Shown here in pieces: positions 6,089-64,000 of a DNA stretch of 64,000 bases. This DNA comes from Nostoc sp. FACHB-280. GTDB taxonomy: Bacteria > Cyanobacteriota > Cyanobacteriia > Cyanobacteriales > Nostocaceae. The stretch lies in the NCBI RefSeq assembly GCF_014697615.1, contig NZ_JACJSD010000019.1:62001-126000 (forward strand), read 5' to 3'. Made by a program: the position numbers and the translations under genes. The first letter of the stretch is position 1. Each line of letters begins with the position of its first letter. The notes under the pieces are model-generated. The model ran no database searches and had not been told where the DNA came from. It saw nothing but the letters and a program-made list of their open reading frames with translations.

Positions 6089-6116
6089 TTAGTGGCGGGT
6101 GAATCCACCACTAATT
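6087..6116 (+). terminator. Hairpin after the Uma2 gene, possible terminator
   Basis: AATTAGTGG (6087-6095) and CCACTAATT (6108-6116) form a 9-bp stem around a 12-base loop, starting at the stop codon. The following bases are only moderately T-rich, so termination is plausible but not certain. Confidence 0.4.
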
Positions 6117-6582
6117 GATTCTGACTTCTGAGTTCTTCTGTAACAAGACTTAAAGATGTTCTCAGTGAACCTTGCTCTCCAAAACGAGAATCGGAATATC
6201 TAGTGGTTTCCTCCGCAATTAGTCTTACATCTTTAACTTTCTAAATCAGAAGATACAAAAGATATCCGTTAGCAATTCACCAACTCAACTCAGCGAGAAT
6301 TTTCGGAGGAATTGCGATCGCATTTTTAGTAGTACTCCAAAACGTCAAATGTGCGTTGTCGCTTGATGAACATTAACAGTTTTCATAAATTTTTAACCTA
6401 TTTCCTGCATATTTCTAGAGAATTGGTCTGAAAGTATTTTATAGAAGATACTCTTCATTCAGCAGTTCTCCATTGCGTCAAGTACATCTCAATAGGGGCA
6501 TAGAGACACTATGTCTATTTTTTTGTACTTCTTAACGGTGAAAATTGCTGTAAGTTTTTGATTTAATCAAATGGATTGAAGA
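6117..6582. other. Intergenic region, nothing recognised
   Basis: About 466 bases of AT-rich sequence with one HIP1 site near 6316. No open frame, RNA or clear repeat was seen. Confidence 0.4.
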
Positions 6583-7254
6583 ATGATAAAACCAGTAAGC
6601 ACCGACATAAAATATGCTTTTCCCTTAATTACTTATCCAGATGGTAGGAAATCTATTTGTATTATTCCTTCAAGATATGTTCAAACAGCATTATCTGAAT
6701 CAGATTATAAAGATTTAAGCAATGAATTTGGATTAGAAGTAGCCTTGGTTAAAGCTGTGATGGAAGTTGAATCTAATGGTTCTGGATTTTTATTGAAAGA
6801 ACCATCTCCAGCACGCCCAAAAATTTTGTTTGAAGGGCATTGGTTCTATAAATTAACTCCTAAACCTGTCTCTAAAAGCCGTCCTGATTTGTCTTATCCT
6901 AGTTGGGATAAAAGTAAATATAAAGGTGGTTCTGGCGAGTGGGAAAGATTATTAGATGCAATGACATTTGATGAAATTCAGGCTTTAAAAAGCGCATCTT
7001 TTGGATTGGGGCAAGTGATGGGGTTTAATTATACTGCTGCGGGTTGTGCTTCGATTCAGCAGTTTATTGAAGAAAACTTTGCTGGAGAGTACTGGCAAGC
7101 CCGACATATGATGAATTTTATTGTGAATAATAATCTGCTAGATGAACTAAAGCGAAAAGATTGGGATGGTTTTGCTAGGGGTTACAATGGCCCTGGTTAT
7201 AAAAAGAATAACTATCATACCAAGTTGGAAGCAGCTTACAAAAAAGCTCTATAG
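6583..7254 (+). CDS. N-acetylmuramidase family protein (DUF3380)
   Basis: A protein of 223 residues with a phage-endolysin-like muramidase domain that hydrolyses peptidoglycan. Motifs include EVALVKAVMEVESNGSGFLL with the likely catalytic Glu, ARPKILFEGHWFYKLT, SASFGLGQVMGFNY and WDGFARGYNGPGY. There is no signal peptide, as in phage or contractile-particle lysins, and the N-terminal 45 residues are not recognised. It stands alone with 494 and 200 bp on either side and no holin or tail genes nearby. It may be a domesticated phage gene or a cell-wall enzyme with another export route. Confidence 0.8.
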   Translation: MIKPVSTDIKYAFPLITYPDGRKSICIIPSRYVQTALSESDYKDLSNEFGLEVALVKAVMEVESNGSGFLLKEPSPARPKILFEGHWFYKLTPKPVSKSRPDLSYPSWDKSKYKGGSGEWERLLDAMTFDEIQALKSASFGLGQVMGFNYTAAGCASIQQFIEENFAGEYWQARHMMNFIVNNNLLDELKRKDWDGFARGYNGPGYKKNNYHTKLEAAYKKAL

Positions 7255-7454
7255 AAAAGTTGGGAGGGTTGAAGGGGTGTAGGTGTTGATTGACACTCTT
7301 TCACCCTCTGCCAAACCCTGATTTGCTTGAAATCTGGCTCAAGATAGTTGTTAATTTATGGAAAATATAAATTGTTTGTTACTTAGCACAAAAATATAAA
7401 ACCGCTTATTATGAGTAAGATTATCATGCAAGCGAGACCAGAGGTTTTGATGAT

Positions 7455-8426
7455 ATGGTGGCTGATGTAATAACAGATACAGTTCCCGTAACTGTTTTGA
7501 CTGGCTATTTGGGTGCAGGCAAAACAACTTTACTCAATCACATTCTCACTTATGAACATGGTAAAAAAGTGGCTGTGATTGTGAATGAATTTGGCGAAGT
7601 GGGCATTGATAATCAATTAGTTATTGATGCCGATGAAGAAATATTTGAGATGAATAATGGCTGTATTTGTTGTACAGTCCGTGGTGATTTAATTCGCATC
7701 ATCGGTAATTTGATGAAGCGACGTGATAAGTTTGACCATTTAGTAATTGAAACTACTGGTTTGGCTGATCCGGCACCAGTAATTCAGACATTCTTTGTCG
7801 ATGAAGATATGCAGGCGAAACTGTCTTTAGATGCGGTGGTGACAGTGGTGGATGCCAAGCATATTTGGCAACATTGGGAAGCTGATGAAGCTCAAGAACA
7901 AATTGCGTTTGCGGATGTTATTTTACTTAATAAAACCGATTTAGTTGCCGCAGAAGAGTTAGAAGAATTAGAAAAGCGGATTCGGGGGATGAATGCGATC
8001 GCCAAAATCTATCGCACCCGTAACTCAGAATTAGCAATGGATTCCTTATTGGGTGTGCAAGCTTTTGATTTGAATCGCGCCTTAGAAATTGACCCGAATT
8101 TTTTAGGCGAAGATGCCCACGAACATGATGAAAGCGTTTATTCTGTGGCGTTAGTAGCAGCAGGCGCACTCGATGGTGAGAAACTACACGCTTGGATGAG
8201 TAAATTATTACAAACTCAAGGCCCTGATATTTTTCGGATGAAGGGCATTTTAAATATTGCGGGGGAAGACAATCGCTTTGTGTTTCAAGGCGTACACATG
8301 ATATTTGATGGTAGACCCGACAGACCTTGGAAACCCACTGAAACACGAAAAAACGAGTTAGTTTTCATCGGTCGGAATTTAGATGAAGCTAAACTCAAAC
8401 AAGATTTTTTGGCTTGTCTAGTGTAG
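7455..8426 (+). CDS. CobW/COG0523 family GTP-binding metallochaperone-like protein
   Basis: A P-loop GTPase of 323 residues. Walker A is GYLGAGKTTLLN (about 17-28), the metal-binding motif GCICC lies at 69-73, the switch region ETTGLADP at about 99-106, and the base-recognition motif NKTD at 159-162. The CobW C-terminal domain occupies about 225-320 (HAWMSKLLQTQGPDIFRMKG). Family members deliver zinc, cobalt or other metals. The His/Glu cluster in EDAHEHDESV may bind metal. No Zur box or metal gene was recognised next to it, so the metal is not assigned. Confidence 0.9.
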   Translation: MVADVITDTVPVTVLTGYLGAGKTTLLNHILTYEHGKKVAVIVNEFGEVGIDNQLVIDADEEIFEMNNGCICCTVRGDLIRIIGNLMKRRDKFDHLVIETTGLADPAPVIQTFFVDEDMQAKLSLDAVVTVVDAKHIWQHWEADEAQEQIAFADVILLNKTDLVAAEELEELEKRIRGMNAIAKIYRTRNSELAMDSLLGVQAFDLNRALEIDPNFLGEDAHEHDESVYSVALVAAGALDGEKLHAWMSKLLQTQGPDIFRMKGILNIAGEDNRFVFQGVHMIFDGRPDRPWKPTETRKNELVFIGRNLDEAKLKQDFLACLV

Positions 8427-37470: not shown

Positions 37471-37568
37471 TTATCCGGTTCAAGGGCAGTAGCAACAGAA
37501 CAAGTAATTGGTAGATGCACCCTGATAACTAACTCCCCTGGCTGGTTTATACCAACTGGGGGATTTTT
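37471..37568 (+). ncRNA. Candidate small RNA unit 1
   Basis: TCCGGT near 37474 could be a -35-like element, and the TAATTG at 37505 a weak -10. A transcript from about 37510 would end at the T-run near 37568, roughly 60 nt. Promoter and transcript are inference. The hairpin and T-run are seen directly. Confidence 0.4.
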
Positions 37569-37598
37569 TTGGCTTGATTTCCTAAAATGAGCAGAATT

Positions 37599-37699
37599 TT
37601 ATCCGGTTCAAGGACAGTAGCAACAGAACAAGTAATTGGTAGATGCACCCTGATAACTAACTCCCCTAGCTGGTTTATACCAACTGGGGGATTTTTTTT
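37599..37699 (+). ncRNA. Candidate small RNA unit 2
   Basis: Nearly identical to unit 1 (AAGGACAG for AAGGGCAG, CCCCTAGC for CCCCTGGC). It ends in a hairpin with an 8-T tail. Same reasoning as for unit 1. Confidence 0.4.
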
Positions 37700-37727
37700 G
37701 GCTTGATTTCCTAAAATGAGCAGAATT

Positions 37728-37826
37728 TTATCCGGTTCAAGGGCAGTAGCAACAGAACAGGTAATTGGTAGATGCACCCTGATAACTAACTCCCCTGGCG
37801 GCTGCCACCACTGGGGGATTTTTTTT
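37728..37826 (+). ncRNA. Candidate small RNA unit 3
   Basis: Same 5' part as units 1 and 2, but the hairpin loop and inner stem are replaced while the outer stem and T-run stay. Keeping structure rather than sequence supports a functional RNA end. Confidence 0.4.
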
Positions 37827-49878: not shown

Positions 49879-49960
49879 GCGGATGTGGCGGAATTGGCAG
49901 ACGCGCTAGATTTAGGTTCTAGTTCCGAGAGGAGTGAAGGTTCAAGTCCTTTCATCCGCA
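49879..49960 (+). tRNA. tRNA-Leu (UAG anticodon)
   Basis: An 82-nt cloverleaf: acceptor GCGGATG with CATCCGC, anticodon stem CTAGA/TCTAG around loop TTTAGGT (anticodon TAG, 49913-49915), a long variable arm typical of tRNA-Leu, and T-arm GTTCAAGTCC. CCA is not encoded. Its last 17 paired bases are the target of the homing spacer at 50165-50181, so it is the CAST attachment gene. Confidence 0.95.
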
Positions 49961-50002
49961 CTAAGTGTAAAAAAGCTATAAATAAAAGGTTTCAGGGGAA
50001 TC

Positions 50003-50160
50003 TGTACAGTGACACATTGTTTGTCATCGGTGACAAATTAATGTCATTGTGACTATTTAATTGTCGTCGTAACCCATTAGCGTTTCTTAATTAATTGATG
50101 ACAAATTAAATGTCATCAATAATATAATATGCTCTGCAATTATTATACAAAGTAATTAAA
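50003..50160. repeat. tRNA-proximal CAST end with TnsB-type repeats
   Basis: Starts TGTACAGTGACA, followed by spaced copies of a TGTCATC/GTGACA motif at about 50021, 50041, 50061 (TTGTCGTCGTAACCC) and 50110 (ATGTCATC). From memory it closely resembles the target-proximal end (left end by the T-LR convention) of Scytonema ShCAST. Confidence 0.85.
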
Positions 50161-50164
50161 ACAA

Positions 50165-50196
50165 GCGGATGAAAGGACTTGCTTTCAACCCACCCC
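50165..50196 (-). CRISPR. Delocalised homing spacer with partial repeat
   Basis: On the minus strand a 15-nt repeat end (GGGGTGGGTTGAAAG) is followed by CAAGTCCTTTCATCCGC. This 17-nt spacer is identical to tRNA-Leu bases 49943-49959. The bases before the protospacer (49940-49942) are GTT, a valid GTN PAM. It is set apart from the main array, as described for V-K homing crRNAs. Confidence 0.9.
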
Positions 50197-50244
50197 TAAA
50201 TTTAATAGTTACTAAAACCCAAAACTAATCTCGGTTTAAAAGAT

Positions 50245-50409
50245 TTTGAAACCCACCCAGTACCTGGAGGGTTGTTGCCACCTAAATCGCAGCAAGTGGG
50301 CGTTCATATATACTACTTTCAACCCACCCAGTACCTGGAGGGTTGTTGCCACGTGGGCAATTTAAGCAACTCTTGCTTACCTGCTTTCTTTCAACCCACC
50401 CAGTACCTG
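50245..50409 (-). CRISPR. Short CRISPR array, 3 repeats and 2 spacers
   Basis: 37-bp repeats lie at 50245-50281 (degenerate at its distal end), 50316-50352 (complete) and 50388-50409 (only the GTACTGGGTGGGTTGAAAG side is kept). Spacers are 50282-50315 (34 nt) and 50353-50387 (35 nt). Transcription is on the minus strand, downstream of cas12k. Spacer origins were not identified. Confidence 0.9.
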
Positions 50410-50489
50410 ATTGCTACAGTCAAACTAACCCTCATTTAACACAGTTCAGAGGTTGCAAGCAGCATGAACTGCGGCGCTATTAAATATTA
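50410..50489 (-). ncRNA. Truncated tracrRNA locus
   Basis: The minus strand downstream of cas12k reads AATAGCGCCGCAGTTCATGC, then CTTGCAACCTCTGAACTG and AAATGAGGGTTAGTTTGACT, which match my memory of the 5' part of the ShCAST tracrRNA. The central domain and anti-repeat of the usual ~200-nt RNA are missing, and the sequence passes directly into a partial CRISPR repeat. The RNA is probably not functional as encoded here. Confidence 0.7.
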
Positions 50490-50515: not shown

Positions 50516-52435
50516 TCAACTTCGCTTAGTTAGGCGGAGATTATAAGCACACAAGGCTAATTCTTTTGCTTTTTCCTGGGGACTGCCACGAACAGGTTGT
50601 TTACCTTCCTCAATCACAATTCCTGTCTGAGCAGCTTTACTTTGAATACTCTGAATTAATCTGCCATAGCTCCATGAATGGATATTGATTCTATACTGTT
50701 TGGCGTATTGTTGCTGGATTTCTACGGAGCCAGGACATTTTGTTTCAGCTATGGCTTGAATTTCACTTTGGAGAATATCTCGCATATCCCCTAGCTTGGG
50801 TAAAACAATACTGTCTGCTTTGTAAGTTTGCGCGATCGCGACAATTTCTTTAGCCAATAATCTGTCCACATATTGTCCTAACTCAGATTTTCCAAATTGA
50901 TTAGGAGAAAAACTTTTTTGTGCTTTATGGCGTTCATGGGATAGCGATCGCTGTTGTCGTCTTTGACGATTCAGGAGTTCGTAATTGTCGCCAAGTAACT
51001 GGCGGATACTCCGGTAAGCTATAACTTTACCTGCAAGCGCATCTACTACGGCTATAGTTGCAGGTTTTTCTAACCCTAAGCTTACTCCTACCAATATGTG
51101 TGATTGACCTTGGTACAGGGGTTTACTAGGACGCTCGAAGGAATTATTTATGCGAGTTAGTGTAGATTGTTTACGCTGAATAAAAGCTTGCTGAGTAATA
51201 CTCAGGTCTGTCTTTTCTTTCATCTTGGTGATGAATTTGGTAATCTCTTGTGCTTTCTCTTGGCGAACTTGTTCTGTTCCTTCAGCACTCCACAGGCGAT
51301 TGTCTACACAGCAATAAAGGGTCAATCGGTTAATTTGCCAAGGTTCACCTTTACCTTCACCTTCTTGCCAAGCTAAACGACCATTTCTGAGAGTGAATAA
51401 ACCGCTAGAATGTTGATGTCTGCTTTGGCGTTTCGTCTGTTGGTCTTCTAAGAACCTTTTAAACCAATGTAATTGGCGGCGATCGCAGTAAACTTCAAAA
51501 GTTAAATCACTCAAGCCGTTGAAGTGAACACACAGCCTACCTTTGTTGTTTGTTGACCAAACAAGGTCTTCGTTCGTTTCAAAAATCAAGGGAAATGGCA
51601 GAGAACTTGACTGAGTTAACAAAATATCTTGCCAGCGTTTAGCTTCGGCATTGTCTTCTGGAACAGTTGTTGTAGCAGTAAAAAGTGTTTCTAACCATTT
51701 AACATTGGTTAAGTCCCGACCTTTAGGAATTCGACTGGTTAGTTTTTCTGTGAGTCTTTGAATTTGGATTTCTAATTTACGGCGGCGTTTGGCAAATTTT
51801 TCTGGGTCTTCTTCTTTATTATTGAGTTTGCAGCCATTTTTCAGGAGATAGCTAATAGCACTACGACTGAGTATGTCGTCAGTTTCTTGATAAGCATCAA
51901 ATAATTTATTAGCTAAACTCCGGTCAGTATTTGAAGCAGATAACTTTTTTGATTTCTTTGCCTTTCCTCTTTTAGCTACAGGAGGATTAGGCTCAGATTC
52001 TGGCGTAGCTATTGCCAAAATTTCAGCAGCTTTGGTACGAATAGCCTCTAAACTGCAACCACTAATTTTTACTAATTCAGCATCGCTGTTGAGTATTTCT
52101 AGCCAGCGTATTTTGCCGTCAAGCTGCTGCTGTAGCCGTTTTTGAATAGCTAACCAAGATTTGTAAATGTAATCCACAACATGGATTGCAGATAAATACA
52201 AACGGCTTGGCTGTCCGACAAAACGAGGGTCAGTTTTCAAGGATTGGCAAAGTTGGTTAACAACTGTTGAGGGCAGTGTGCCATTTTTTTGCCACTTCTC
52301 AAAATCTGGATTTTTACTAAGCTGTTGAAGCAGTTCGTTAATTAAAGGTGTGTTTAATTTTGCCATCAACTTCCAGAGTTGTTGACGGGTAGACTCACTA
52401 GCAATTAGGCGACATTGAATAGTGATTTGGCTCAT
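50516..52435 (-). CDS. cas12k: Type V-K effector Cas12k
   Basis: A protein of 639 residues, the normal Cas12k length. The N-terminus MSQITIQCRLIASESTRQQL and segments INELLQQLSKNPDFEKWQ, QPSRLYLSAIHVVDYIYKSW match Cas12k of ShCAST as I recall it. The RuvC-like region (LVGVSLGLEKPATIAVVDAL, SIVLPKLGDMRDIL) lacks the usual catalytic acids, as expected for this naturally inactive effector, which guides transposition rather than cleaving DNA. No frameshift is seen. The promoter region shared with cvkR has two operator-like sites. Confidence 0.95.
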   Translation of the reverse strand: MSQITIQCRLIASESTRQQLWKLMAKLNTPLINELLQQLSKNPDFEKWQKNGTLPSTVVNQLCQSLKTDPRFVGQPSRLYLSAIHVVDYIYKSWLAIQKRLQQQLDGKIRWLEILNSDAELVKISGCSLEAIRTKAAEILAIATPESEPNPPVAKRGKAKKSKKLSASNTDRSLANKLFDAYQETDDILSRSAISYLLKNGCKLNNKEEDPEKFAKRRRKLEIQIQRLTEKLTSRIPKGRDLTNVKWLETLFTATTTVPEDNAEAKRWQDILLTQSSSLPFPLIFETNEDLVWSTNNKGRLCVHFNGLSDLTFEVYCDRRQLHWFKRFLEDQQTKRQSRHQHSSGLFTLRNGRLAWQEGEGKGEPWQINRLTLYCCVDNRLWSAEGTEQVRQEKAQEITKFITKMKEKTDLSITQQAFIQRKQSTLTRINNSFERPSKPLYQGQSHILVGVSLGLEKPATIAVVDALAGKVIAYRSIRQLLGDNYELLNRQRRQQRSLSHERHKAQKSFSPNQFGKSELGQYVDRLLAKEIVAIAQTYKADSIVLPKLGDMRDILQSEIQAIAETKCPGSVEIQQQYAKQYRINIHSWSYGRLIQSIQSKAAQTGIVIEEGKQPVRGSPQEKAKELALCAYNLRLTKRS

Positions 52436-52454
52436 AAAAATAAAATATCACAAA

Positions 52455-52487
52455 AACACATTATGTTATCTAAAAATATTATGTGTT
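52455..52487. promoter_or_regulatory. Two CvkR operator-like sites
   Basis: AACACATTATGTTAT (52455-52469) fits the published CvkR motif AnnACATnATGTnnT fully, as I recall it. AAAATATTATGTGTT (52473-52487) fits with one mismatch. They lie between the divergent cas12k and cvkR starts. Confidence 0.7.
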
Positions 52488-52516
52488 TTAAGAGATGCTT
52501 CTATAGGATGATTCTT

Positions 52517-52969
52517 ATGGAAGGAAAGTTTTACACAAGCACAGAAGCATCAGAAATTACTCATTGCTCTCGCCGCCAGTTACAGTATTGGCGAGAGAAG
52601 GGAGTTATAGTACCTACTGTTAACAGTAGTGGCAAAGGTCGTAATGTTTACTACTCTAAAGCTGATCTACTGGCATTAACAGTAATGGAGCAGTTGCTGT
52701 CAATTGGTTTAAATTTTGAGGTTTGCCATGCAGCATTGGAAACACTGCGGAAAAATGAACCTTGGTTATTTGATGAGTCTGTTCCAGAAGAAAAGATGAA
52801 GCAGCTAATGTTATTACCGACGCGATCGCCTGAACAACCTTTACAATTGGCAGAGTTTGACAAGAAAGTGGCGCTAGAAGCTCTTTGTCAGGGAAAAACT
52901 GTGATTCCTTTTTGGTGCGATCGCATTCATCAACAATTAAGAGAAAATCTCAAAAGCTTTAGTAGTTGA
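52517..52969 (+). CDS. cvkR: MerR-type repressor CvkR-like
   Basis: A protein of 150 residues. A MerR-type helix-turn-helix opens it (FYTSTEASEITHCSRRQLQY), with YWREKGVIVPT as wing. The C-terminal part is short with no metal-binding cysteines. CvkR proteins repress cas12k and tracrRNA in V-K CAST systems; identification rests on position divergent from cas12k, domain and operators. The ATG at 52517 follows AGGA by 8 bases. A longer frame to 52415 would overlap cas12k. Confidence 0.85.
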   Translation: MEGKFYTSTEASEITHCSRRQLQYWREKGVIVPTVNSSGKGRNVYYSKADLLALTVMEQLLSIGLNFEVCHAALETLRKNEPWLFDESVPEEKMKQLMLLPTRSPEQPLQLAEFDKKVALEALCQGKTVIPFWCDRIHQQLRENLKSFSS

Positions 52970-53100
52970 GCAATGCTAAGAGCGATCGCCACAGCCGATA
53001 ATCAAGGTTAGCTGGAGGCGATCGCTTTTATCCTTAGCTGTTAAACTCAAATCGAGAAATTAGCAAATATAAGGATAATTTTTGCTAATCTCATTACTCA

Positions 53101-53955
53101 TTAAGCTTGTTTTGTATGTTTTCTTTTTAACATAACTCCAATCCCGCCAGCCAAAATAGAACCCAGGATAGTTAAAGGTTCAGGTACTGGTTGAGGATTC
53201 GTATTTGTCACTGAAGCATTTGTTAACGACAATATTGATGAGCCAACAGTGTCATCCACATCAACAATACCAATACCAATGTTACCAATACCAATGTTGT
53301 AGATGCCAGATGTGGCAAATGTATAGCTCAAAGGGGAACTTCCAGTTAAAGTGATAACTGAGTTGCTAATGGCTACAAAAGCGCGATCGCGGATGCTAGT
53401 GTAAACAAATTCGTCATTACCGTCGCCGCCTGTGAGTGTATCTGCACCTTGGAAACCAATAATGCGATCGCTGTTGTTAGTGCCAATTAAAACATCACGT
53501 CCTGATGTACCAATAATTTCATTTGGCTGACTAGCAGGATTATTAGTGACTGTTAAGGTGAAGACATCACTAATACTTGCTCCAGAATTATCAGTTGCTG
53601 TTACTTGAATGTTGAGTGAACCAACTTCGCTGTTGGTTGGTGTACCGTTAAACGTGCGGGTAGTGGCGTTGAAGCTTAACCAATTTGGTAAAACTGCACC
53701 ATTTTCTAAAGTTACAGAGTAGGTAAGGCTATCGTCTGCATCAACGTAATTAAAGGTATTTGCAGGGATAGTAAAGCTAAACTCTGCATCTTCGGTTGCA
53801 GCTTGATCGGCGATCGCATTACCCAATGTTGGTGCATCATTAGTGTTAGCCACTGTCAAAGTGAAGACATCACAGTTATCGGTGGCGACGCTGTAGAAAG
53901 CGTAGGTGCGTCCTACTTCGCCTGTATAAATTGCTGAGGTGTCTGTGATGTCATC
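53101..53955 (-). pseudogene. 5'-truncated cadherin-like/RTX/PEP-CTERM surface protein
   Basis: The frame is open from 53955 with no start codon; a TAA precedes it. It reads a bacterial Ig/cadherin-like repeat ([39 protein letters not shown]), calcium-binding RTX-like repeats ([27 protein letters not shown]), and a PEP-CTERM sorting end ([17 protein letters not shown] then basic residues). The upstream [16 protein letters not shown] segment belongs to another part of such proteins, joined at [11 protein letters not shown], so an internal deletion is likely. The intact parent would be a large surface protein. Confidence 0.65.
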
Positions 53956-54017
53956 TTACCACAGAACAAATAGACTTGTCCGAAATATTAAAGCAGGAAG
54001 AAATTCGCTCCCATCCA

Positions 54018-54086
54018 GGGCGGCAAGCAGAGGGGTTTTTATAATCACTATTCATGCTCATGGGGATTGAACTAGCAGTTCCAGAT
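54018..54086 (+). mobile_element. IS5-type transposase fragment, copy 1
   Basis: GGGCGGCAAGCAGAGG onwards reads GRQAEGFL, stop, SLFMLMGIELAVPD, a transposase N-terminal motif. It repeats at 54372-54440 with several differences. Short isolated remnant. Confidence 0.5.
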
Positions 54087-54133
54087 GGCGTTGTTGCGTG
54101 AATAGACAAAATGGTAAATTTTACCTATCGCCG

Positions 54134-54446
54134 ATGTTTGCTCACCGCAAGCGCCCAGAGATAAAGACGAAAGCCCAGGACAAAGTTAAGAATTGGAACG
54201 CCTATGATGCTTCCCTCTAGCTTCGAGGCAGTATAACTTTCTGGGTGAACGAAGAAGTAATCGAGCAGTGGCACAACCAGCAAAAAACAGGAAGAAAGGG
54301 AGCATCGAATTATTACTCTGATACGGCGATTGCAACAATGGGAACAATTTTCTACGGTGTTTCATTTACTAGGGCGACAAGCAGAGGGGTTTTTAGAATC
54401 GCTGTTCATGCTCATGGGAATTGAGCTAGTAGTACCGGATCACTCT
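54134..54446 (+). pseudogene. IS5-like transposase remnant
   Basis: From ATG at 54134 the frame gives KVKNWNAYDASL, an in-frame stop, then LRGSITFWVNEEVIEQWH and YYSDTAIATMGTIFYGVFHL with a frameshift, then GRQAEGFLESLFMLMGIELV. This is the N-terminal third of an IS5-like (DDE_Tnp_1_5) transposase, broken by a stop and a frameshift. The catalytic core is missing. No IS ends were recognised. Confidence 0.6.
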
Positions 54447-54591
54447 AATGCTTTTCTTTCTCTAGCCACAATTCATATCTGGATTAACAGAATTTTATTA
54501 GTGGGATAGGTTCGTCAATTTGCCTGAGTGAACATTGCATAAGGTAAGTAAGCCTAGAATTAAGAATCAATGTCAGGCGATACTGCTGTTG

Positions 54592-55995
54592 ATGGTTGAA
54601 ACGCAAATACTTATGGGTGTGGCATCACGATATTGGCAACTTGTAAAAATTGATGGAGCGGGACGGCGGCAGGTTCAGGAAATCATTCCAGCTAAGGAGT
54701 TTTTTGCTGAGGTATTCCCAGAGGTTACAGACAAAGGAGAGCATTCAGATATAGAAATTCAACTAAAACTACTGCAATTATCACGGGATGCGCCTACTGA
54801 TAGATACTTATTAGCTCAACGTTGTCTACTGTGTTTTATATCGTGGCAGATTGAACAAGTGTGCTGGCAGTTGGAACAAAATTTTGGGGTTATTCATGGT
54901 TTTACTTGTGCTGATTTATTACCTTATGTATTAGATGATGATGGTAGTTTAAAACCTGTTAATAATTATCAGTGCCTTTCTAGAAAAATTTTACAAAGTT
55001 TTGATCCACAACAAAGCAGTCTAAAAACTTGGACACATACTAAAGTTAAACATGATTCAGAAATGAATCAATTTCTCTTAGGGTGTGGAGTTTATTTGAT
55101 AAGTGACTGGGCAATTCTCAACGATACTCAACCTAACCAATTACAACGGATTCTAACAGCATTTTACTCACTAACATTAAGTGAAATTCAGCAAGCACAA
55201 AAACTTTTAGAAAGCTATCATACTATTTATCGGTCTGCTCGTTTACAACAGAGAGCAAGGGGAATAGGTGGTAAATGTACTACGCCAACAACTGAACAAT
55301 TACAACAGATTGCGCTGCTCTTGGAAAATAAAACAGGTCAGATTTTTAGGGCTGAGACTGTTATGGCAAAATTGCAAGAACTTGCTGAACGACTGCGACA
55401 ATATCGGATTTATATTCGCAGTGCTTATTTACCTACAGAACCTTTAGATATTTTGAATAAAGATAGCCATCCTGTTACAAAAGAGATATTAGATAATGAA
55501 AATGAACAATTAGAGTTTCTGAAATTATATCGAATCCAATTTTTAGCTTGCTTAGAACAAGCTTTAGCTTTAGTGATACAATCACGGATAAATCAATTAC
55601 AAAGAAAAAACGCCGATAAAGCTAAACAATTTTTAATAGCACTCCGGTTATTTCATTGCCAAAATCTATCAATGACAGAAATTGCTGCTAGATTAGAGTT
55701 ACGCGCCCAAGATGCAGTTACTCGTCTTTTAAAACTGAAGGAATTTCGTTCTGAAGTCAGTCAACAACTTTTAAATCTATTATGTAAACAGGTATTAGAA
55801 TTAGCTAGAAACTATTCAAATATAGAGAGTCTGACAATTTTAGAACAACAAATTAAAATAGCTATTAACGAACAAATTGAAATTGTCATTATAGATGCAG
55901 AAACTCAAGCACAAACAGCTAAAAATTATATAAAAACTAGTCTATTTAACGAGAAACTTTGCCGCTATCTTGATGTAATGAATGAGGATATATGA
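54592..55995 (+). CDS. Sigma-70-like regulator (module C)
   Basis: A mostly helical protein of about 467 residues. Near residues 350-390, FLIALRLFHCQNLSMTEIAA and LELRAQDAVTRLLKLKEF form a sigma region 4-type helix-turn-helix; the rest is not a standard sigma factor. The C-terminus is long and helical. TTG at 54535 is an alternative start. It overlaps the DUF1822 gene by 4 bp (ATGA), so the two are translated together. It is a counterpart of the protein at 36196 by position and fold, with low visible sequence similarity. Confidence 0.65.
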   Translation: MVETQILMGVASRYWQLVKIDGAGRRQVQEIIPAKEFFAEVFPEVTDKGEHSDIEIQLKLLQLSRDAPTDRYLLAQRCLLCFISWQIEQVCWQLEQNFGVIHGFTCADLLPYVLDDDGSLKPVNNYQCLSRKILQSFDPQQSSLKTWTHTKVKHDSEMNQFLLGCGVYLISDWAILNDTQPNQLQRILTAFYSLTLSEIQQAQKLLESYHTIYRSARLQQRARGIGGKCTTPTTEQLQQIALLLENKTGQIFRAETVMAKLQELAERLRQYRIYIRSAYLPTEPLDILNKDSHPVTKEILDNENEQLEFLKLYRIQFLACLEQALALVIQSRINQLQRKNADKAKQFLIALRLFHCQNLSMTEIAARLELRAQDAVTRLLKLKEFRSEVSQQLLNLLCKQVLELARNYSNIESLTILEQQIKIAINEQIEIVIIDAETQAQTAKNYIKTSLFNEKLCRYLDVMNEDI

Positions 55996-57338
55996 AGAAT
56001 ATAACAACTAACGAATTTCAGGAGCGGCTAGATTTTGAAGTATTACCATCAGCCGTAATTAATCTGACTAATGAACAAATTGCTCATGCTGTAGAAATCA
56101 GCAACAAAACTAAAAAATTATCTAAACAATGGCAAATTTATATTCATGCCTTAGCTTTACTGGCTTTTGAAGAGTGGTTGACAGAAAGGTTAGATATTCT
56201 GACTATTAACCATGAAAAATCTACCCTAATGCAACCAGGATTAGCAAGTGCGATCACGGCTGTTGCCAATTTACAAGTCAATAAATTTAAACTTTGTTTG
56301 TTAGCAACTGGTAGTCTTACAGATAATCAAATAATTATACCTAGAGTTGTCATAGATGTAGCAGAATATACTGCACATTTTTATGTATTAGTAGAAGTCT
56401 TAGAAGAACAAAATGCAGTAATTATTTCTGGTTTTTTGACTTATCAACAATTAAAAGAATATAAAGTAAAAGTTCATTTACAACCAACATCAGACTGGAA
56501 TTACCAAATTCCCACCAGTTTATTTATTAATGAGCCAGACCGCTTATTATTATACTTGCGTTATTTACAACCAGAAGCAATTGCTTTACCATCACTCAAT
56601 GTTAGCACTCAAATGTTAGCTAATATTCAAAATGAATTGTTAACATTATTACCCCAATTAGAATCACCTGAATCCGAATTATGGCAAATTCTGAGTTGGG
56701 AACAAGGAAAAGCTGTAATAACCCACCTAGAATTAGTGAATTGGGTAGATAGTTTGCAGCAAAAATCACACAAATATTCAACTAAAGACAGCTTAAAAGA
56801 TTTACTAAATTTGTTAACTCAGCCAGCACTAAATGCAGGTCTTTGGTTATGGGACGAATTAGATGAATTAGCACAAGAATTGTCTTGGCATTTATTACCT
56901 AATTTGACACCAGCACCAGCAATGCGAAGTCCAACAGAAGAATTTCAGTCAATTATGACTCAGTTACAACAACGGCATATAGAAATTCCTGTGCAAGCGC
57001 GAGGTGCTTATCAAGATTTTCTGTTAACAGGAGTCCCTCTACGTTTATATGCTGTGACTTGGCATTTATTATCAGAATCAGAGCCACATTTATGGACATT
57101 GTTACTAATTTTAGGTACAGCTTCTCATCAGAATCTACCTGGAGATTTAAAACTACGGGTAAGTGACCAAACAGGGATTTTATTAGAAACTGGGGTGTCC
57201 CGACAGCAAGGAGATGCTTATTTATTTACACGTGTAGTGGGTAATTGGAATGAAAAGTTCTTAGTGAGTATCAGTTTAATGGATGGGATAGAGGTAATTT
57301 TACCACCATTTACATTCTGCCCTCAGAGAGTGCTTTAG
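55992..57338 (+). CDS. DUF1822 family protein (module C)
   Basis: A protein of 448 residues overlapping the sigma-like gene by ATGA. DUF1822 features: LSKQWQIYIHALALLAFEEW near the start, DVAEYTAHFYVLVEVLEEQN in the middle, and a beta-rich C-terminal LKLRVSDQTGILLETGV. It is longer than the module A protein. Function unknown. The order sigma-like then DUF1822 is the same as in module B. The sequence is AT-rich with many TTA codons. Confidence 0.75.
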   Translation: MKNITTNEFQERLDFEVLPSAVINLTNEQIAHAVEISNKTKKLSKQWQIYIHALALLAFEEWLTERLDILTINHEKSTLMQPGLASAITAVANLQVNKFKLCLLATGSLTDNQIIIPRVVIDVAEYTAHFYVLVEVLEEQNAVIISGFLTYQQLKEYKVKVHLQPTSDWNYQIPTSLFINEPDRLLLYLRYLQPEAIALPSLNVSTQMLANIQNELLTLLPQLESPESELWQILSWEQGKAVITHLELVNWVDSLQQKSHKYSTKDSLKDLLNLLTQPALNAGLWLWDELDELAQELSWHLLPNLTPAPAMRSPTEEFQSIMTQLQQRHIEIPVQARGAYQDFLLTGVPLRLYAVTWHLLSESEPHLWTLLLILGTASHQNLPGDLKLRVSDQTGILLETGVSRQQGDAYLFTRVVGNWNEKFLVSISLMDGIEVILPPFTFCPQRVL

Positions 57339-57474
57339 TTGCTCCGGTTACATTTTTAGAAACGAGCATTCTAATTACTAACATACTAAAGAATCAAACA
57401 TTTTGCATAACTACCCCAGGTATGAGAGATATATAAAAGTAAACTCTCACCATGCTTGAAGGATAGTTTACCCT

Positions 57475-58071
57475 GTGCATTATTGTTTGAAATCCATCTC
57501 TCTTGCCATTTTCATAGTATCCCTGTCTTTTCCTGTAAGCATTGCTGAATCACAGACAAGGAGAAATATGCAACCTATACTGACTACACAGGAGCCAGTA
57601 ACTCAAGAACAAAAGGATGAAGTATTAAGACTCAACTATTTAGGTGTTCAGCAGTTCAACACAGGTAATTATCAAGAAGCTTTGAAGACTTTAGAGCATA
57701 CAGATAAGAGTATACCAACGGCGATCGCCCTTGCACCTACTAGTAATGATGATGGTTTACTTACCCCTGCGGAAATTGTTAACTTAAAAATTAACGCAGA
57801 GTTAGTAGTTTTAAGTGCTTGCAATACTGGGCAATGTAAGATGGCGTAATTGGGTTATCTCATTCTTTAATTATTGCTGGTATGCAAGTGTAATTGTCTC
57901 GCTATGGGCTGTTCCCGATTCACCGACATCAGAACTAATGACAGATTTTTTCGACAATGGGATAAAAATCATGATCAGGCTGTAGCCTTAAGAAATGCTA
58001 TGCTGATTACTATGAAAAAGCATCCAAATCCGATAAATTGGACAGCGTTTACTTTAATCGGAGAGCCGTAA
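57475..58071 (+). pseudogene. TPR-CHAT gene with internal deletion and frameshift
   Basis: The first frame has a signal peptide (ISLAIFIVSLSFPVSIA), one TPR-like unit (LNYLGVQQFNTGNYQEALKT) and then jumps to a late CHAT segment (NDDGLLTPAEIVNLKINAEL, LVVLSACNTGQ). After a frameshift near 57840 it continues SLWAVPDSPTSELMTDFF and NPINWTAFTLIGEP. Most TPRs and the CHAT His region are missing. The parent was a secreted TPR-CHAT protein. It lies between the DUF1822 and CHAT-CHASE2 genes. Confidence 0.8.
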
Positions 58072-58119
58072 TTTAAGCTAAAAGTGTATTTAATTACCAT
58101 TTATTAATAGTTATGATTT

Positions 58120-60531
58120 ATGGCTGGTTCTAAATTTAATTTAAAAATTCAGCAATTTGATAAATTCTGCTCCTTTGAATTAGCTTGGGGTCAGGGTCAG
58201 CAAATTGTAACTACACTTGCTTATCCTGACGAGTTAAATTTTAAATACCAAGAATGGCAGCGCATTTATCTGAGGTTTTATAGTACGGCATTGAGAGGGA
58301 AAGTAGAAGAAGTTGGTAGTTTACTTGCACCTTCTATTGATTGGCGTTCAGAATTAGTTAAAAAAGAAACAGAACTTCTATCTGAGTTTTATCGATGGTT
58401 ACGCAGTGCAGAGTTGTATGAGATTCGTGCAGAAATTGCTAAGGCGACCAGAAACATTGAAAACTCTTACATCAATATCTTTATCAGTTGTAACTCTCTA
58501 GGATTAATAAGATTACCTTGGGAAGTTTGGGAAATTGGCACAGATTTTGGTTTATCATCTAGCAAAATTCGGATTATACGTACATCAATAAATAGAACAC
58601 GACCATTTACACCTTTAAGTCGTTATCGTTCTGGTAAAGCTAGAATTTTAGTAATTTTAGGTGATGAAACTGGATTAAATTTTCAAGCAGAAAAGCAGGC
58701 ATTAAAATCTTTAAAACAATTAGCAGAAGTTGAATTTATTGGTTGGCAACCCCAAGAAAATATTCCTGAGTTAAAAAACAAGATTGTCCAAGCAATTACT
58801 TCTACATTAGGGTGGGATATTTTATTATTTGCAGGGCATAGTAATGAAACAAATCTGACTGGAGGAGAAATAGCGATCGCACCCAATGTGGCTTTATCAG
58901 TCAGTGAGCTAGAACGCCCATTACTAATTGCTAAAGAAAAAGGCTTACGGTTTGCTTTGTTTAATTCTTGTAATGGTTTAAGTATTGCTGATAAATTGAT
59001 TGATTTAGGCATAAGCCAAGTCGCAATTATGCGTGAACCTATCCATAATCAAGTTGCTGGCAAATTTATTTTATCTTTTATTCAAGCCTTGTCTGAATAT
59101 AAAGATATTCATACATCTTTAATTACAGCTTCTCAATATTTTAAACTAGAAAAACATTTTACCTATCCTAGTGCTTACTTAATTCCTTCATTATTCGGAC
59201 ACCCAGAAGCTGATTTATTTTATCTCAAAAATTACGGAATAAAATCATTATTTAAACTTTTTAAACCTACTACTCAAGAGATAGCTTTTATTGGAACATT
59301 ATTAGTAATAAGTTTAATATTACCATTACAAAATTTATTATTACAACAGCGAATTTTATTACAAGCTCAGTATCGTCAATTGACAAACCAATTAGCAATG
59401 AAGGTTAGTCAGCCACCTGTACTATTAGTAACAATTGATGAAGAATCTATTATAAAAGCTAAAATATCTAACCCTAAACCAATGGATCGTAGATATTTAG
59501 CAAGTTTAGTAAATAAACTGACAGCTTATCAAGCTAAAGTTATTGGGATTGATTATTTATTAGATAGACCACATCCACAAACAGATCAAATACTTGCTAA
59601 TTCTATTAAATCTGCTGTTGAGTCTGATAAACATACTCTATTTGTTTTTATTACAGATGATGATAAAAGCGTCTTACCTGAGATTGCTAGTTTAAATTGG
59701 AGTTTAGAAGGAGAAGTTACAACTTATCCTTGGTATGTAAAATTATTACCATATAATTATTTTCAAACTCAACAGCCTTGGAATTTCGCTAGTGTATTAG
59801 CTTTAGCAAAACAGCTACAACAAACTTCTAATCCACCCTTACCACAATTAAACAATAATACAGATTATTTCCAGACGGTAAAAAACTTCTTAATTTCTCA
59901 TAAACAATCGAATAAAACATTTATAAAATACCAGCGTTCACATGAAAAAATAATTACTTTATTAAGTTATAATATCCACCAAATTTTCTTAAAACCTATT
60001 ATTGATTTTTCAATTCCCCCAGAGCAAGTTTATGACTCTATCCCAGCTTGGAAGCTTTTAGAAAGTCAAACAGCACCACAAAATCTACAACAGCAGGTCG
60101 TCATGATCGTTGCAGGCGGTTATGACGAAGCTGGTATATCATTTGATGGAGAAGACAATTATGATCAAGAAAATCTACCACTGGCTATTCAGTACTGGCA
60201 CCCAGATAGCAAAGTGTTTACAGGCGGGGAATATAATGCTTACATGGTACATCATTTTTTGACTGGGCGATTAGTTGTACCAATTCCTGAGGTGTGGTTA
60301 ATAGTCTTAACAGTCATTTTGAGTAAAATCTGGTATTTATGGCAAAATAATAGAAAGAGTACTAATTGGTACTTACTGATATTACCAACTTCTTTTACAG
60401 GTCTTTACGGACTCGTAAGTTTACAATTGTATATTTCTTCATTTGCTATCTTGTTACCTTTGCTGTTACCTTCTGCTACTTTATGGTATTACGTTTTATC
60501 CACTATTTATAAAAGGAAAGCTAATGAATAA
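58120..60531 (+). CDS. CHAT and CHASE2 domain-containing membrane protein (module C)
   Basis: A protein of 803 residues with the same design as the one at 9443: an N-terminal helical region, a CHAT domain (about 175-375) with His240 (LLFAGHSNE) and Cys284 (FNSCNGLSIA), a membrane helix (about 386-403), a CHASE2 domain (about 405-705) and three helices near 725-790. Both catalytic residues are kept, so the protease may be active. It overlaps the DUF928 gene by 8 bp. The gene is clearly AT-rich compared with module A. Predicted role: membrane-signal-controlled protease, by inference. Confidence 0.85.
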   Translation: MAGSKFNLKIQQFDKFCSFELAWGQGQQIVTTLAYPDELNFKYQEWQRIYLRFYSTALRGKVEEVGSLLAPSIDWRSELVKKETELLSEFYRWLRSAELYEIRAEIAKATRNIENSYINIFISCNSLGLIRLPWEVWEIGTDFGLSSSKIRIIRTSINRTRPFTPLSRYRSGKARILVILGDETGLNFQAEKQALKSLKQLAEVEFIGWQPQENIPELKNKIVQAITSTLGWDILLFAGHSNETNLTGGEIAIAPNVALSVSELERPLLIAKEKGLRFALFNSCNGLSIADKLIDLGISQVAIMREPIHNQVAGKFILSFIQALSEYKDIHTSLITASQYFKLEKHFTYPSAYLIPSLFGHPEADLFYLKNYGIKSLFKLFKPTTQEIAFIGTLLVISLILPLQNLLLQQRILLQAQYRQLTNQLAMKVSQPPVLLVTIDEESIIKAKISNPKPMDRRYLASLVNKLTAYQAKVIGIDYLLDRPHPQTDQILANSIKSAVESDKHTLFVFITDDDKSVLPEIASLNWSLEGEVTTYPWYVKLLPYNYFQTQQPWNFASVLALAKQLQQTSNPPLPQLNNNTDYFQTVKNFLISHKQSNKTFIKYQRSHEKIITLLSYNIHQIFLKPIIDFSIPPEQVYDSIPAWKLLESQTAPQNLQQQVVMIVAGGYDEAGISFDGEDNYDQENLPLAIQYWHPDSKVFTGGEYNAYMVHHFLTGRLVVPIPEVWLIVLTVILSKIWYLWQNNRKSTNWYLLILPTSFTGLYGLVSLQLYISSFAILLPLLLPSATLWYYVLSTIYKRKANE

Positions 60532-61300
60532 ATGGCAAATACTTCAATTTGTACTGTTTAGACAAATTAATTATTTAAAATTAAACAAAACTATTCCTGT
60601 GAAAAAGTTAATTTCAATTTATTTTTTGTTTTCCACCTTCTGTCTAACTTATACTAATCTACCTGTTTTATCTAGTCAAACAAAATCTTCATCTACTAAA
60701 GAAGTATCAACTCAATCATTTATAGCGTGGTTTAATCAAATTTCTTTGAGCAAAAAACCCCCAATAAAACCACGCAAAACTGGTAGCAGAAATCCAAACA
60801 GTGCTGATGATAATTTTGTTTGTATGGTTTCTCCTGATTTACCAAACTCTACTAGAGTTATTTGGAGTAATCGTCCTTTATTTATTTGGCAAGGGAAAAT
60901 ACAAAAAATAGTAGTACGTAATAAAAGTAACGGTAATGAATGGACTAGATACATAACAGAAAATCAGAATACTACTACTTACACAGAGAGACAACCACTA
61001 CAACCCGGTCAAAACTACGAATGGCAAGTATTTTTTAAAGATAATTTGTCTATTGAAGTTAATTTTAAGGTAATGGAGATGCAACAACGCGATCGCATTA
61101 CCGCAAATATAACTACTTTAGAAAAGCAACTTAAAGCCCAAGGTAAAGATGCAGAAGCGATCGCCATTGCTAAAGCCAATTACTTTGCTGAAAATCAATT
61201 ATGGTCGGACGTATTGCAGCAAATCTACTCTATAGATAAACCTTCTCCCGAATTAGATAAGTTCCGTCAAGAACTTTCTGAAAATCTGTGCAAGCTTTGA
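60524..61300 (+). CDS. DUF928 domain-containing protein (module C)
   Basis: A protein of 258 residues. A hydrophobic segment at about 26-45 (ISIYFLFSTFCLTYTNLPV) is an uncleaved anchor or signal. The DUF928 core shows RPLFIWQGKIQKIVVRNKSN and LQPGQNYEWQVFFKD, then a helical C-terminus (EAIAIAKANYFAENQLWSDV). AAGGAAA precedes the ATG at 60524, which overlaps the CHAT-CHASE2 stop, so the two are coupled. The PPGGRVLGG stretch of the module A protein is not obvious here. Probably periplasmic. Confidence 0.75.
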   Translation: MNKWQILQFVLFRQINYLKLNKTIPVKKLISIYFLFSTFCLTYTNLPVLSSQTKSSSTKEVSTQSFIAWFNQISLSKKPPIKPRKTGSRNPNSADDNFVCMVSPDLPNSTRVIWSNRPLFIWQGKIQKIVVRNKSNGNEWTRYITENQNTTTYTERQPLQPGQNYEWQVFFKDNLSIEVNFKVMEMQQRDRITANITTLEKQLKAQGKDAEAIAIAKANYFAENQLWSDVLQQIYSIDKPSPELDKFRQELSENLCKL

Positions 61301-61640
61301 AGGCAGGATTAATCTGTAATAAAGCTTCAAGTTTTAACAACTCTCAATACCCAAAGAGGTTAATCTACTAAAGTTTGGGGTTGCCCTCTGGAGTAGCAAT
61401 TCTCTCCCTATGCAACTGTGAAATATGAAATTTTGCATATCCTGCGATCGCCTAGAAATATAAATCAGTGAACAGTGAACAGTGACTGATAACTGGTAAC
61501 TGAAAATTGACAACTGCTATACGTTATCTAAAACTCTATTTAACAACCATCGCTCTTATTCTTGATATCTCACCAGTTATAGCTTAATTTACCGATATTT
61601 TTCTGAGCAACGCAGGTGTTAGCGTAAACACCACAAGACC
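61301..61640. other. Intergenic region with CAGTGAA repeat
   Basis: About 340 bases. CAGTGAACAGTGAACAGTGA at 61467-61486 is a short tandem repeat. No gene was seen. It separates the DUF928 gene from the decayed CHAT gene. Confidence 0.4.
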
Positions 61641-62196
61641 GCAAAGCCGAAGCGGACAGACTTTTACAGCAAGGTAAAAAGAAGTTAAAGAAATTGGCAA
61701 GTTCCTCAAAACGGAACATCTCATTGGCAAAAAAGCAACAGAAGCAACGGTAGTCAAGCTTTTACCGCAAGTGCGATTTATTCATTTAGCAACACACGGT
61801 TTATTTGATGATATCCAAGGATTAAATAGTGCGATCGCTTTAACTCCGTCAGGTAAAGATGATGGCTTATTAACTGCCTCAGAAATTCTCGACCTGAAAC
61901 TCAACGCCGAACTAGTGGTTTTAAGTGCTTGCGACACCGGACGCGGACGAGTAACTGGGGATGGTGTAATTGGTTTATCTCGTTCCTTGATTAGTGCGGG
62001 TGTACCCAGCGTCTTAGTATCGCTGTGGTCAGTTCCAGATTCGCCCACAGCACAATTAATGACTCAATTTTATCAAAATCTGCAAAAAAACCCTGACAAA
62101 GCCCAAGCACTGCGTCAGGCGATGCTGACGACGATGAAAAGCAATCCAAATCCTGTTGATTGGGCGGCTTTTACTTTGATTGGGGAAGCCGAGTAA
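61641..62196 (+). pseudogene. TPR-CHAT gene remnant with internal deletion
   Basis: AEADRLLQQGKKKLKK near 61646-61690 resembles the start of a TPR region; after a frame change the CHAT domain begins at KEIGKFLKTEHLIGKKATEA and runs on with FIHLATHGLFDD (His), VVLSACDTGRGRVTG (Cys) and NPVDWAAFTLIGEAE. The CHAT half is complete and open from 61678, with a possible GTG start at 61771, but TPRs and signal peptide are gone. It is like the pseudogene at 57475, though its CHAT residues are intact. Confidence 0.7.
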
Positions 62197-62307
62197 GTTT
62201 TTTACTTTCTACTAAAGTCAAAAGCTCTCTAAGATTTTTGCATAACCTCAAAAAACCCAGAAGTAGAATCTTTTAAATCGACTACAGCCAAGATATAAAA
62301 ACATACT

Positions 62308-64000
62308 ATGTCTAACCTCAAACGTCGTCATTTTCTCCAATGTTCCGCTTCTACCCTTGCTGCATTGGGTTTGAGTCAATTGGAAATTGTGCAACAGAGC
62401 AATAAGCTAGGTCAAGCCATTGCACAAAATACAGGGCGTAAACTAGCATTATTAGTCGGAATTAATGAATATTCTGAAGATGACGGTTTACCATCTTTAG
62501 AAGGCTGTATCACTGATGTCAGGTTACAGCAGGAGTTATTAATTCACCGCTTTGACTTTAAATCCCAGGATATTCTTACCCTGACTGATAAACAAGCCAC
62601 TCGTCAAGGCATTCTTACAGCCTTTGAAGAACATTTGATTAAACAAGCCAAGCCTGAAGATACAGTGCTGTTTCATTTTTCTGGGCATGGTACAAAAGTT
62701 AAAGATCCAGACGGTGATTCGCCAGATGGGCTAAACAGTACATTGATTCCTGTAGACGGGAAACTACCTCCCAGATTTCCTGAGCAAGGTGGCCCTGTGC
62801 AGCACATTATGGGACACACGCTTTTTTTACTCATGTCTGCATTAAAAACAGATAACGTTACTGTTGTGCTAGACAGCTGCCATTCTGGTGGGGGTAAACG
62901 GGGAAATTTGCGAGTTCGTTCTGTTAACGGTGGCGCACTACTACTACCTAGTCAAGAGGAATTAGAATATCAACGCCAATGGTTGAAGCGACTGGGACTT
63001 TCACCACAAGAATTTATTCAAAAACGCAGACAAGCTGTTGCAAAGGGAGTTGTCATTGCTAGTGCTAAACGTGAGCAATTTGCAGCTGATGTACCTTTTG
63101 ATGACTTTCATGCTGGGGCATTTACTTATTTGTTGACGCAGTATCTTTGGCAACAAACTACTAACGAGGCAATTAACAGCGCGATCGCTAATGTTGAACG
63201 TAGTACTAAAATATTAGCTAAGGAAAACGGAAATCTCCAAGATCCAGAATTTGAGTCTAATTTCAGACCAAACAAGGCCAATGCACCTATATATTTTATT
63301 CCTTTTCAAGCTGTTCCGGCTGAGGCTGTAATTATACAAGCTCAGAGTAATCAAGTTCAGTTGTGGTTAGGTGGGATAGAGCCACAAAGCTTAGAAGCTT
63401 TTAGTGAAAATCCCTTGTTTTCTGTAATTAATGCTCAGGGTGATGAAGTTGGATTGGTAGAGTTAAAGTCACGTCAAGGATTAATTGGCAAAGGTACATT
63501 AATCAACACAGCTACACGCTCAACATTAAAATTACAACCGGGAACTTTATTACAAGAACGTATTCGTAGTGTTCCCAATAATCCTACCTTAAAAATTGGA
63601 ATTGATGAATCGTTAGATCAAAATACCGCCCAACAAGCAATATTAGCCCTTCAAGCACTCAAACGCATCGAACCTCAACCGTTGGGAAAACAAGCGGTGC
63701 AGTATATTATTGGGCAGATGACTCAGACTAAATTTCAAGAATTGCAAAAAAAAGGAATCTCTCAACTTCCAGAAGTTGGTAGTTTTGGTCTATTTTTACC
63801 TAGTCAAGACGAAATTATTGCCAAATCTTTTGGTCAAGCTGGTGAAAATATAACTGAAGCCGTAAAACGATTACAACCTAAATTCAAATCTTTGCTGGCG
63901 GCCAGAGTAGTTAAACAGATTCTCGGCAATACTAATTCATCACGTATTAATGTCATAGTCTCCATGAGTATTGCTAATAGGAATGAACTTATAGCCCAAT
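62308..64000 (+). CDS. Caspase family protease with Tat signal (partial, runs off window)
   Basis: An open frame of 564 codons to the window end. The N-terminus KRRHFLQCSASTLAALGL is a twin-arginine signal. The peptidase C14 domain (about 45-270) has His127 in FHFSGHGT and Cys191 in LDSCHSGGG, the metacaspase pair. A C-terminal region of unknown fold follows (about 320 onwards). It lies 112 bp after the TPR-CHAT remnant. Periplasmic or membrane-side location is implied. It may act with the CHAT-CHASE2 protein, by proximity only. Confidence 0.88.
   Translation, partial: MSNLKRRHFLQCSASTLAALGLSQLEIVQQSNKLGQAIAQNTGRKLALLVGINEYSEDDGLPSLEGCITDVRLQQELLIHRFDFKSQDILTLTDKQATRQGILTAFEEHLIKQAKPEDTVLFHFSGHGTKVKDPDGDSPDGLNSTLIPVDGKLPPRFPEQGGPVQHIMGHTLFLLMSALKTDNVTVVLDSCHSGGGKRGNLRVRSVNGGALLLPSQEELEYQRQWLKRLGLSPQEFIQKRRQAVAKGVVIASAKREQFAADVPFDDFHAGAFTYLLTQYLWQQTTNEAINSAIANVERSTKILAKENGNLQDPEFESNFRPNKANAPIYFIPFQAVPAEAVIIQAQSNQVQLWLGGIEPQSLEAFSENPLFSVINAQGDEVGLVELKSRQGLIGKGTLINTATRSTLKLQPGTLLQERIRSVPNNPTLKIGIDESLDQNTAQQAILALQALKRIEPQPLGKQAVQYIIGQMTQTKFQELQKKGISQLPEVGSFGLFLPSQDEIIAKSFGQAGENITEAVKRLQPKFKSLLAARVVKQILGNTNSSRINVIVSMSIANRNELIAQ

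Follow-up and report, generated by a model that had tools for sequence, protein, structure and literature searches.

A type V-K CAST at tRNA-Leu in Nostoc sp. FACHB-280 with most of its tracrRNA missing

Introduction

What brought a transposon to a tRNA-Leu gene of Nostoc sp. FACHB-280, and does the element still carry all that would be needed to guide it there? The question is raised by a window of 64,000 nucleotides, the whole stretch of DNA that was analysed (genome G000, contig C25, positions 62001–126000); coordinates without a contig or locus name refer to this window. C25 is 139,951 bp long and belongs to a 7.64-Mb assembly of 113 contigs.

The survey in PMC9938897 describes 118 cyanobacterial V-K systems in 88 strains and gives their layout as a truncated repeat (R*) of ~12 nt, a 17-nt anchor spacer, a GTN PAM and 46–82 nt from the PAM to the CRISPR-side end, which is named LE there. 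As summarised in PMC11406308, V-K att sites are mostly tRNA genes, and the crRNA that serves them is nearly always truncated and set apart from the others.

It is highly probable that the window holds the CRISPR-side end of a type V-K Tn7-like CAST of ~36–37 kb that homed to tRNA-Leu and that, since or before then, lost most of its tracrRNA. A second V-K element on contig C22 keeps its own.

Guide, target and spacing

The features of the tRNA-Leu locus are as follows:

49879–49961, plus strand: tRNA-Leu gene, the homing (att) gene (ARAGORN; Rfam tRNA)
49940–49942, plus strand: PAM, GTT (from the sequence)
49943–49959, plus strand: 17-nt protospacer CAAGTCCTTTCATCCGC in the 3′ part of tRNA-Leu (from the sequence and a genome-wide pattern search)
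49985–49995, plus strand: left arm AAAGGTTTCAG of a terminator-like hairpin downstream of tRNA-Leu
49998–50002, plus strand: GAATC, the 5-bp target-site duplication (second copy at C61:7675–7679)
50003–50164, plus strand: CRISPR-side transposon end with terminus TGTACAGTGAC (the inverted terminus ends at C61:7674)
50165–50181, minus strand: anchor (delocalised) spacer CAAGTCCTTTCATCCGC, identical to the protospacer
50182–50194, minus strand: truncated repeat R* GGTGGGTTGAAAG, 13 nt, directly before the anchor spacer

The terminus TGTACAGTGACA starts at 50003, which sets the distance from PAM to terminus at 60 bp (49943–50002). R* and the 17-nt spacer lie outside the array, next to a tRNA match with a GTN PAM and a spacing within 46–82 nt, as in the homing units of PMC9938897; the insertion range quoted in the initial annotation was 60–66 bp. 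Searched at up to two mismatches, the 17-mer has two sites in the 7.64-Mb assembly, the protospacer and the anchor spacer, and the reversed 17-mer, used as a control pattern, has none. The initial annotation had placed the tRNA, PAM, protospacer, spacer, GAATC, terminus and 60-bp distance at these positions, and all of them hold on rechecking. It had also seen every part of the homing signature in register, which is right for the guide, the PAM and the spacing and goes too far for the tracrRNA, most of which is absent.

Three repeats of an array follow, all on the minus strand:

50245–50281, minus strand: array repeat, degenerate at its 3′ end (Rfam CRISPR-DR15)
50316–50352, minus strand: intact array repeat of 37 nt (Rfam CRISPR-DR15)
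50388–50409, minus strand: first array repeat, of which the 3′ 22 nt are left

The spacers between them (50282–50315 and 50353–50387) had no match among plasmids at E 0.1.

The second end and the genes between

Beyond the array the element continues with cas12k, a regulator and cargo:

50516–52435, minus strand: cas12k, 639 aa, no internal stop (PADLOC, 1178 bits; NCBIfam V_Cas12k, 976 bits)
52415–52969, plus strand: MerR-type regulator, cvkR-like by domain and position
52970–64000, strand not given: cargo encoding Ig/RTX, DUF1822, CHAT, CHASE2 and DUF928-like proteins

The regulator is divergent to cas12k, and its start codon is perhaps called too far upstream (the C22 homologue has 168 aa). 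From this cargo the element runs on to C25:139824, through an insertion sequence (IS) and into C61:128–7674, where tniQ, tnsC, tnsB and the other end are found. An inverted terminus was sought on the rest of C25 and is absent from it because the contig stops inside the IS. On C61, a terminus GTCACTGTACA ends at 7674 and is directly followed by GAATC (7675–7679).

The end of C25 and the start of C61 are copies of one IS, of which eight left and seven right contig ends were found; six left/right pairs have their outer 8 bp in common, and left ends on C38 and C96 and a right end on C70 have no 8-bp partner. For the 8-bp duplication at C25, ATCACTAT, C61 is the sole partner, so that the adjacency of the two contigs is given by IS duplication and not by a contiguous read. 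The pairing also follows by elimination, since a whole-genome protein search returned two cas12k genes (C25 and C22) and two close tnsB genes (C22 and C61), alongside one 29%-identical match on C106. The element pieces of 27,822 and 7,547 bp add up to 35,369 bp, and with an IS of ~1.4 kb (1,421 bp in the case of a related copy on C40) the element comes to ~36–37 kb.

A second end followed by GAATC had been set beforehand as the test of the V-K CAST reading, and this prediction from raw sequence held across the assembly gap, with the end found on C61 and joined to C25 through the IS target duplication. Together with the intact cas12k and the match to the published layout, it bears out the reading of the initial annotation. 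Paired inverted termini and a 5-bp target duplication are therefore present, across the IS. Inward from the far end, C61 carries tnsB (ORF at 5658–7412, with the inverted terminus beyond), tnsC and a small tniQ in this order; TnsB has 584 aa, TnsC 276 and TniQ 168, none with internal stops, and their domains are Mu-transpos_C/rve, TniB and TniQ. No protein named in the scan is a TnsA.

The same IS with 8-bp duplications breaks the assembly at contig ends on C18, C21, C25, C30, C36, C37, C61, C63, C78, C95, C102 and C110, among others, and matching IS duplications are thus a simple means of ordering contigs.

Further cargo comprises caspase-domain proteins, a C39-peptidase ABC exporter and an HlyD-family protein. 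Three near-identical small peptide ORFs inside the CAST (L037 4074–5602, C25:135074–136602), of double-glycine type by eye, lie on the cargo side of the C39-ABC exporter, the HlyD-family protein and a PpiC-type protein (TIGR04500 match below cut-off). A phosphotransferase-fold protein (APH/choline kinase family) is encoded inside the element near the end of C25 (L037 6989–8149). Elsewhere in the window, three NsiR1 nitrogen-stress small RNA genes lie in tandem at 37509–37825 (Rfam RF02399).

Guides and targets at other cas12k loci

T-arm sequence is conserved among tRNAs, and a stretch of the element could therefore resemble a tRNA by chance. This was weighed in a survey of 50 cas12k loci, 48 from genome contigs plus the two of this genome (C25 and C22), in which 267 17-mers following an exact TTGAAAG, array repeats included, were compared with the opposite strand downstream at up to two mismatches and with no PAM required. 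Guide matches were found in 34 of the 50 loci, one in each; base-shuffled flanks gave 0.04 per pass. PAM positions 1–2 read GT in every one of the 34 (GTA in 17, GTT in 14, GTC in 3). With this, and with GAATC lying next to the second end on C61 as predicted, chance similarity has next to no probability left, and homing to tRNA-Leu remains our reading. The other 16 loci, some truncated or divergent, gave no guide–target unit.

Loosely defined, the hexamer TGTACA lies 54–67 bp from the PAM in 27 of the 34 loci, four of which have another hexamer elsewhere, and it is absent at that distance from L123, L130, L145, L152, L156, L159 and L161. Leaving aside our own two loci, 28 of 32 have a protospacer that overlaps a tRNA called by ARAGORN, and L119, L121, L122 and L123 have no such tRNA. 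Of 15 mismatches in 22 distinct guide–target pairs, 14 are at the PAM-distal positions 9–17, a naturally occurring pattern that hints at a PAM-proximal seed; the tally covers pairs collected at up to two mismatches, from lineages that are not independent. One survey genome, Nostoc carneum NIES-2107 (AP018180.1), has two cas12k loci ~37 kb apart (L122 and L143), with Cas12k matches of 1–639 and 1–374.

Loss of the tracrRNA

The stretch between array and cas12k holds two further features:

50409/50410, minus strand: deletion junction, with ~361 bp gone relative to C22, including most of the tracrRNA
50410–50481, minus strand: what is left of the tracrRNA at its 5′ end, 72 nt on the assumption of a start 35 nt past cas12k, the position mapped in Anabaena 7120 (PMC9938897)

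In Anabaena 7120, tracrRNA and array are described as parts of a single precursor whose start lies 35 nt past cas12k (PMC9938897). From the end of cas12k to the first TTGAAAG there are 121 bp on C25, against 476–487 bp in 10 of 11 other loci; the remaining one, L127, has 806 bp. C25 tracks C22 for 106 nt (99% identity) and then jumps to the middle of the first array repeat, so that ~72 nt of the 5′ part is what is left of a tracrRNA between cas12k and array. Five loci were examined for the octamer AACCCTCC, a candidate for pairing with the repeat that we take to be the anti-repeat; it is found in C22, L117, L118 and L121 and is absent from the C25 remnant.

A 190-nt tracrRNA core taken from C22 was compared with all 50 cas12k loci and matched 43, partially in L127, L130, L143, L157, L162 and L164. 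Unmatched are C25, L126 and L150, of which the latter two hold just 53 and 447 bp downstream, and L142, L154, L155 and L163, whose Cas12k matches are incomplete (1–602, 1–580, 125–526 and 207–316, respectively). Outside these seven, every locus with a Cas12k match reaching at least residue 634 has at least a partial tracrRNA match. A search of the genome itself returned a complete tracrRNA on C22 only and the 5′ part on C25.

The deletion could be an artefact, and the C25 element fully autonomous: the assembly has 113 contigs, and CRISPR repeats lie at the junction. We consider this quite improbable, given that the junction joins a unique stretch to the middle of a repeat rather than to a repeat boundary, and that C22 is the single place in the assembly with the 3′ part of the tracrRNA, of which no orphan copy turned up on other contigs. 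We thus read the C25 element as a V-K CAST with secondary tracrRNA loss, filed as a defective member because all protein and end features are present. Since most of its tracrRNA is lost and the sole complete copy lies on C22, the C25 copy would, barring assembly error, be immobile or dependent on other tracrRNA in trans.

The element on C22

C22:109009–132807 is a V-K CAST of ~23.8 kb with the same termini, full-length genes and both ends on one contig. Its proteins are 93% (Cas12k), 91% (TnsB), 79% (TnsC) and 92% (TniQ) identical to those of the C25/C61 element, from which it differs in its complete tracrRNA and in its tRNA. It adjoins a tRNA-Leu gene split by a group I intron (Rfam; ARAGORN does not call this tRNA), which we take to be tRNA-Leu(UAA), also from its sequence. 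The C22 anchor spacer has one mismatch to its own tRNA-Leu, the end lies 59 bp from the PAM, and the edges of the element have only 3 bp (TAA) in common, not 5 bp.

The C22 site was compared by eye in ten relatives and is uninterrupted in seven (G001, G002, G004, G005, G008, G009 and G010), which have both arms of the hairpin GCCTGCTTA/TAAGCAGGC that the C22 element splits, G008 with one change in the left arm; G003, G006 and G007 do not have the two arms together.

A type I restriction HsdR-like protein of 1070 aa is encoded in the C22 element beside the MerR-type regulator (L038 8777–11989), and restriction–modification genes are named as common CAST cargo in PMC9938897.

The tRNA-Leu site in relatives

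The relatives are ten same-genus genomes in a search of 60 genomes including G000. End sequence is found at the same tRNA-Leu in five of the ten (G003, weakly, with 60 bp at 75%; G004; G007; G008; and G009), which makes the site a hotspot. Measured by hand, the distance from PAM to end is 60 bp in G007, 61 in G004, 62 in G009, 45 in G008 and ~44 in G003, where it is degenerate. Three others (G001, G002, G010) have both hairpin arms at tRNA-Leu, and G005 and G006 neither arms nor end sequence.

The initial annotation had named relatives carrying the same sequence without cas12k as the case against its reading, and these turned up in a weak form alone. Within the 12 kb compared in each, the match of G009 is limited to the first 108 bp of the end, whereas that of G004 covers 49 bp of the end and two cas12k pieces of 97 and 141 bp; we read both as remnants of decayed CASTs.

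That this CAST homed with its own crRNA had been put forward as directly evident. It is the best reading, because the genome search returned no such guide besides that of C25, the spacer of C22 differs from the C25 target at three positions, and the 17-nt identity is preserved; it is drawn from anatomy, the event itself not being visible. Guidance by the crRNA of another element, be it a sibling CAST or one that occupied the site earlier, would fit the now broken C25 tracrRNA and the repeated occupation of the site in the genus (five of ten), by which other elements with such a guide existed, and G007 indeed has an identical spacer at the same tRNA. Against the sole guide in the genome, the mismatches of C22 and the preserved identity, we give this alternative little credence and keep to homing with the element's own crRNA.

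In G001, G002 and G010 the hairpin is a strong one, at −16.9 to −18.9 kcal/mol with z of −3.9 to −5.5, and the C25 insertion point matches the position of its loop, as judged by the left arm alone, the right arm being absent beside the C25 element. We infer that insertion ~60 bp from a T-arm PAM falls into the terminator of the tRNA. It is no general rule, as the targets of many survey guides are deeper within the tRNA. Past the second GAATC, the flank is a DDE-transposase fragment (L073 7675–8061; weak Pfam match, 20.9 bits at a cut-off of 23) and not the other hairpin arm of the three relatives; the site had therefore been altered before insertion, or a deletion came later. None of the ten relatives has the exact empty site, and an intact relative of the transposase fragment with that start, sought as a clue to the pre-insertion site, gave partial matches only. 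The C61 flank lies ~3 Mb from tRNA-Leu in G006 and G009 (the tRNA contig is chromosome-size in both) and ~63 kb from it, in the same orientation, in G004, a hint that the two flanks were formerly closer neighbours.

The C61 flank was also considered as the end of an older CAST, since it resembles the terminus over ~15 bases, and this was set aside as the less likely reading, the same bases being in frame with the transposase fragment.

A model of insertion and loss

Cas12k, tracrRNA and the crRNA with its truncated repeat and 17-nt spacer would bind the 3′ part of the tRNA at the GTT PAM, upon which TniQ, TnsC and TnsB would insert the element 60 bp downstream and duplicate GAATC; assembly of the complex and strand transfer are modelled on published V-K biochemistry. 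Most of the tracrRNA gene would have been lost after insertion, or before it if insertion was helped in trans. For guidance, the C25 copy would now need a tracrRNA from another source, and the one complete copy found in the genome is in the C22 element. Whether the tracrRNA-less CAST is mobile in trans, with its intact Cas12k, its transposition genes, its 17-nt guide and a tracrRNA borrowed from C22, is a matter of speculation, and we think it rather unlikely; if true, the two co-resident CASTs would interact as a pair, or one would be a parasite helped by the other. Titles and beginnings of abstracts in the literature searched gave no report of terminator-loop insertion or of trans-supplied tracrRNA, which does not show that none exists.

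Comparison with known V-K systems

A close known system is the V-K element of Nostoc sp. FACHB-110 (L117), which has a tRNA-Leu target, the same 17-nt spacer and R*, a spacing of 60 bp and a Cas12k that is 91% identical; unlike C25, it has an intact tracrRNA and more array repeats. ShCAST of Scytonema hofmannii also has its tracrRNA intact, unlike the C25 element, and the finding of its motif matching tRNA-Leu reportedly goes back to Saito et al. 2021. As in ShCAST, where it is suspected to direct homing (PMC10949235), a 17-bp motif in the C25 end matches tRNA-Leu. With AnCAST and the systems described in PMC9938897, the C25 element shares the tRNA facing the end, R*, the 17-nt anchor spacer, the GTN PAM, the spacing, a reverse-oriented MerR-type regulator (CvkR) beside cas12k, and tnsB-tnsC-tniQ at the other end. 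It differs from AnCAST, given there as 24,963 nt, in its size of ~36–37 kb and in having most of its tracrRNA deleted. The architecture of a V-K CAST with a delocalised crRNA is thus already in print (PMC9938897, PMC10949235, PMC11406308), and what is particular here is that one element has lost its tracrRNA while another in the genome retains one: a natural V-K pair, one member without tracrRNA, that provides a setting for testing the sharing of guide scaffolds between CASTs.
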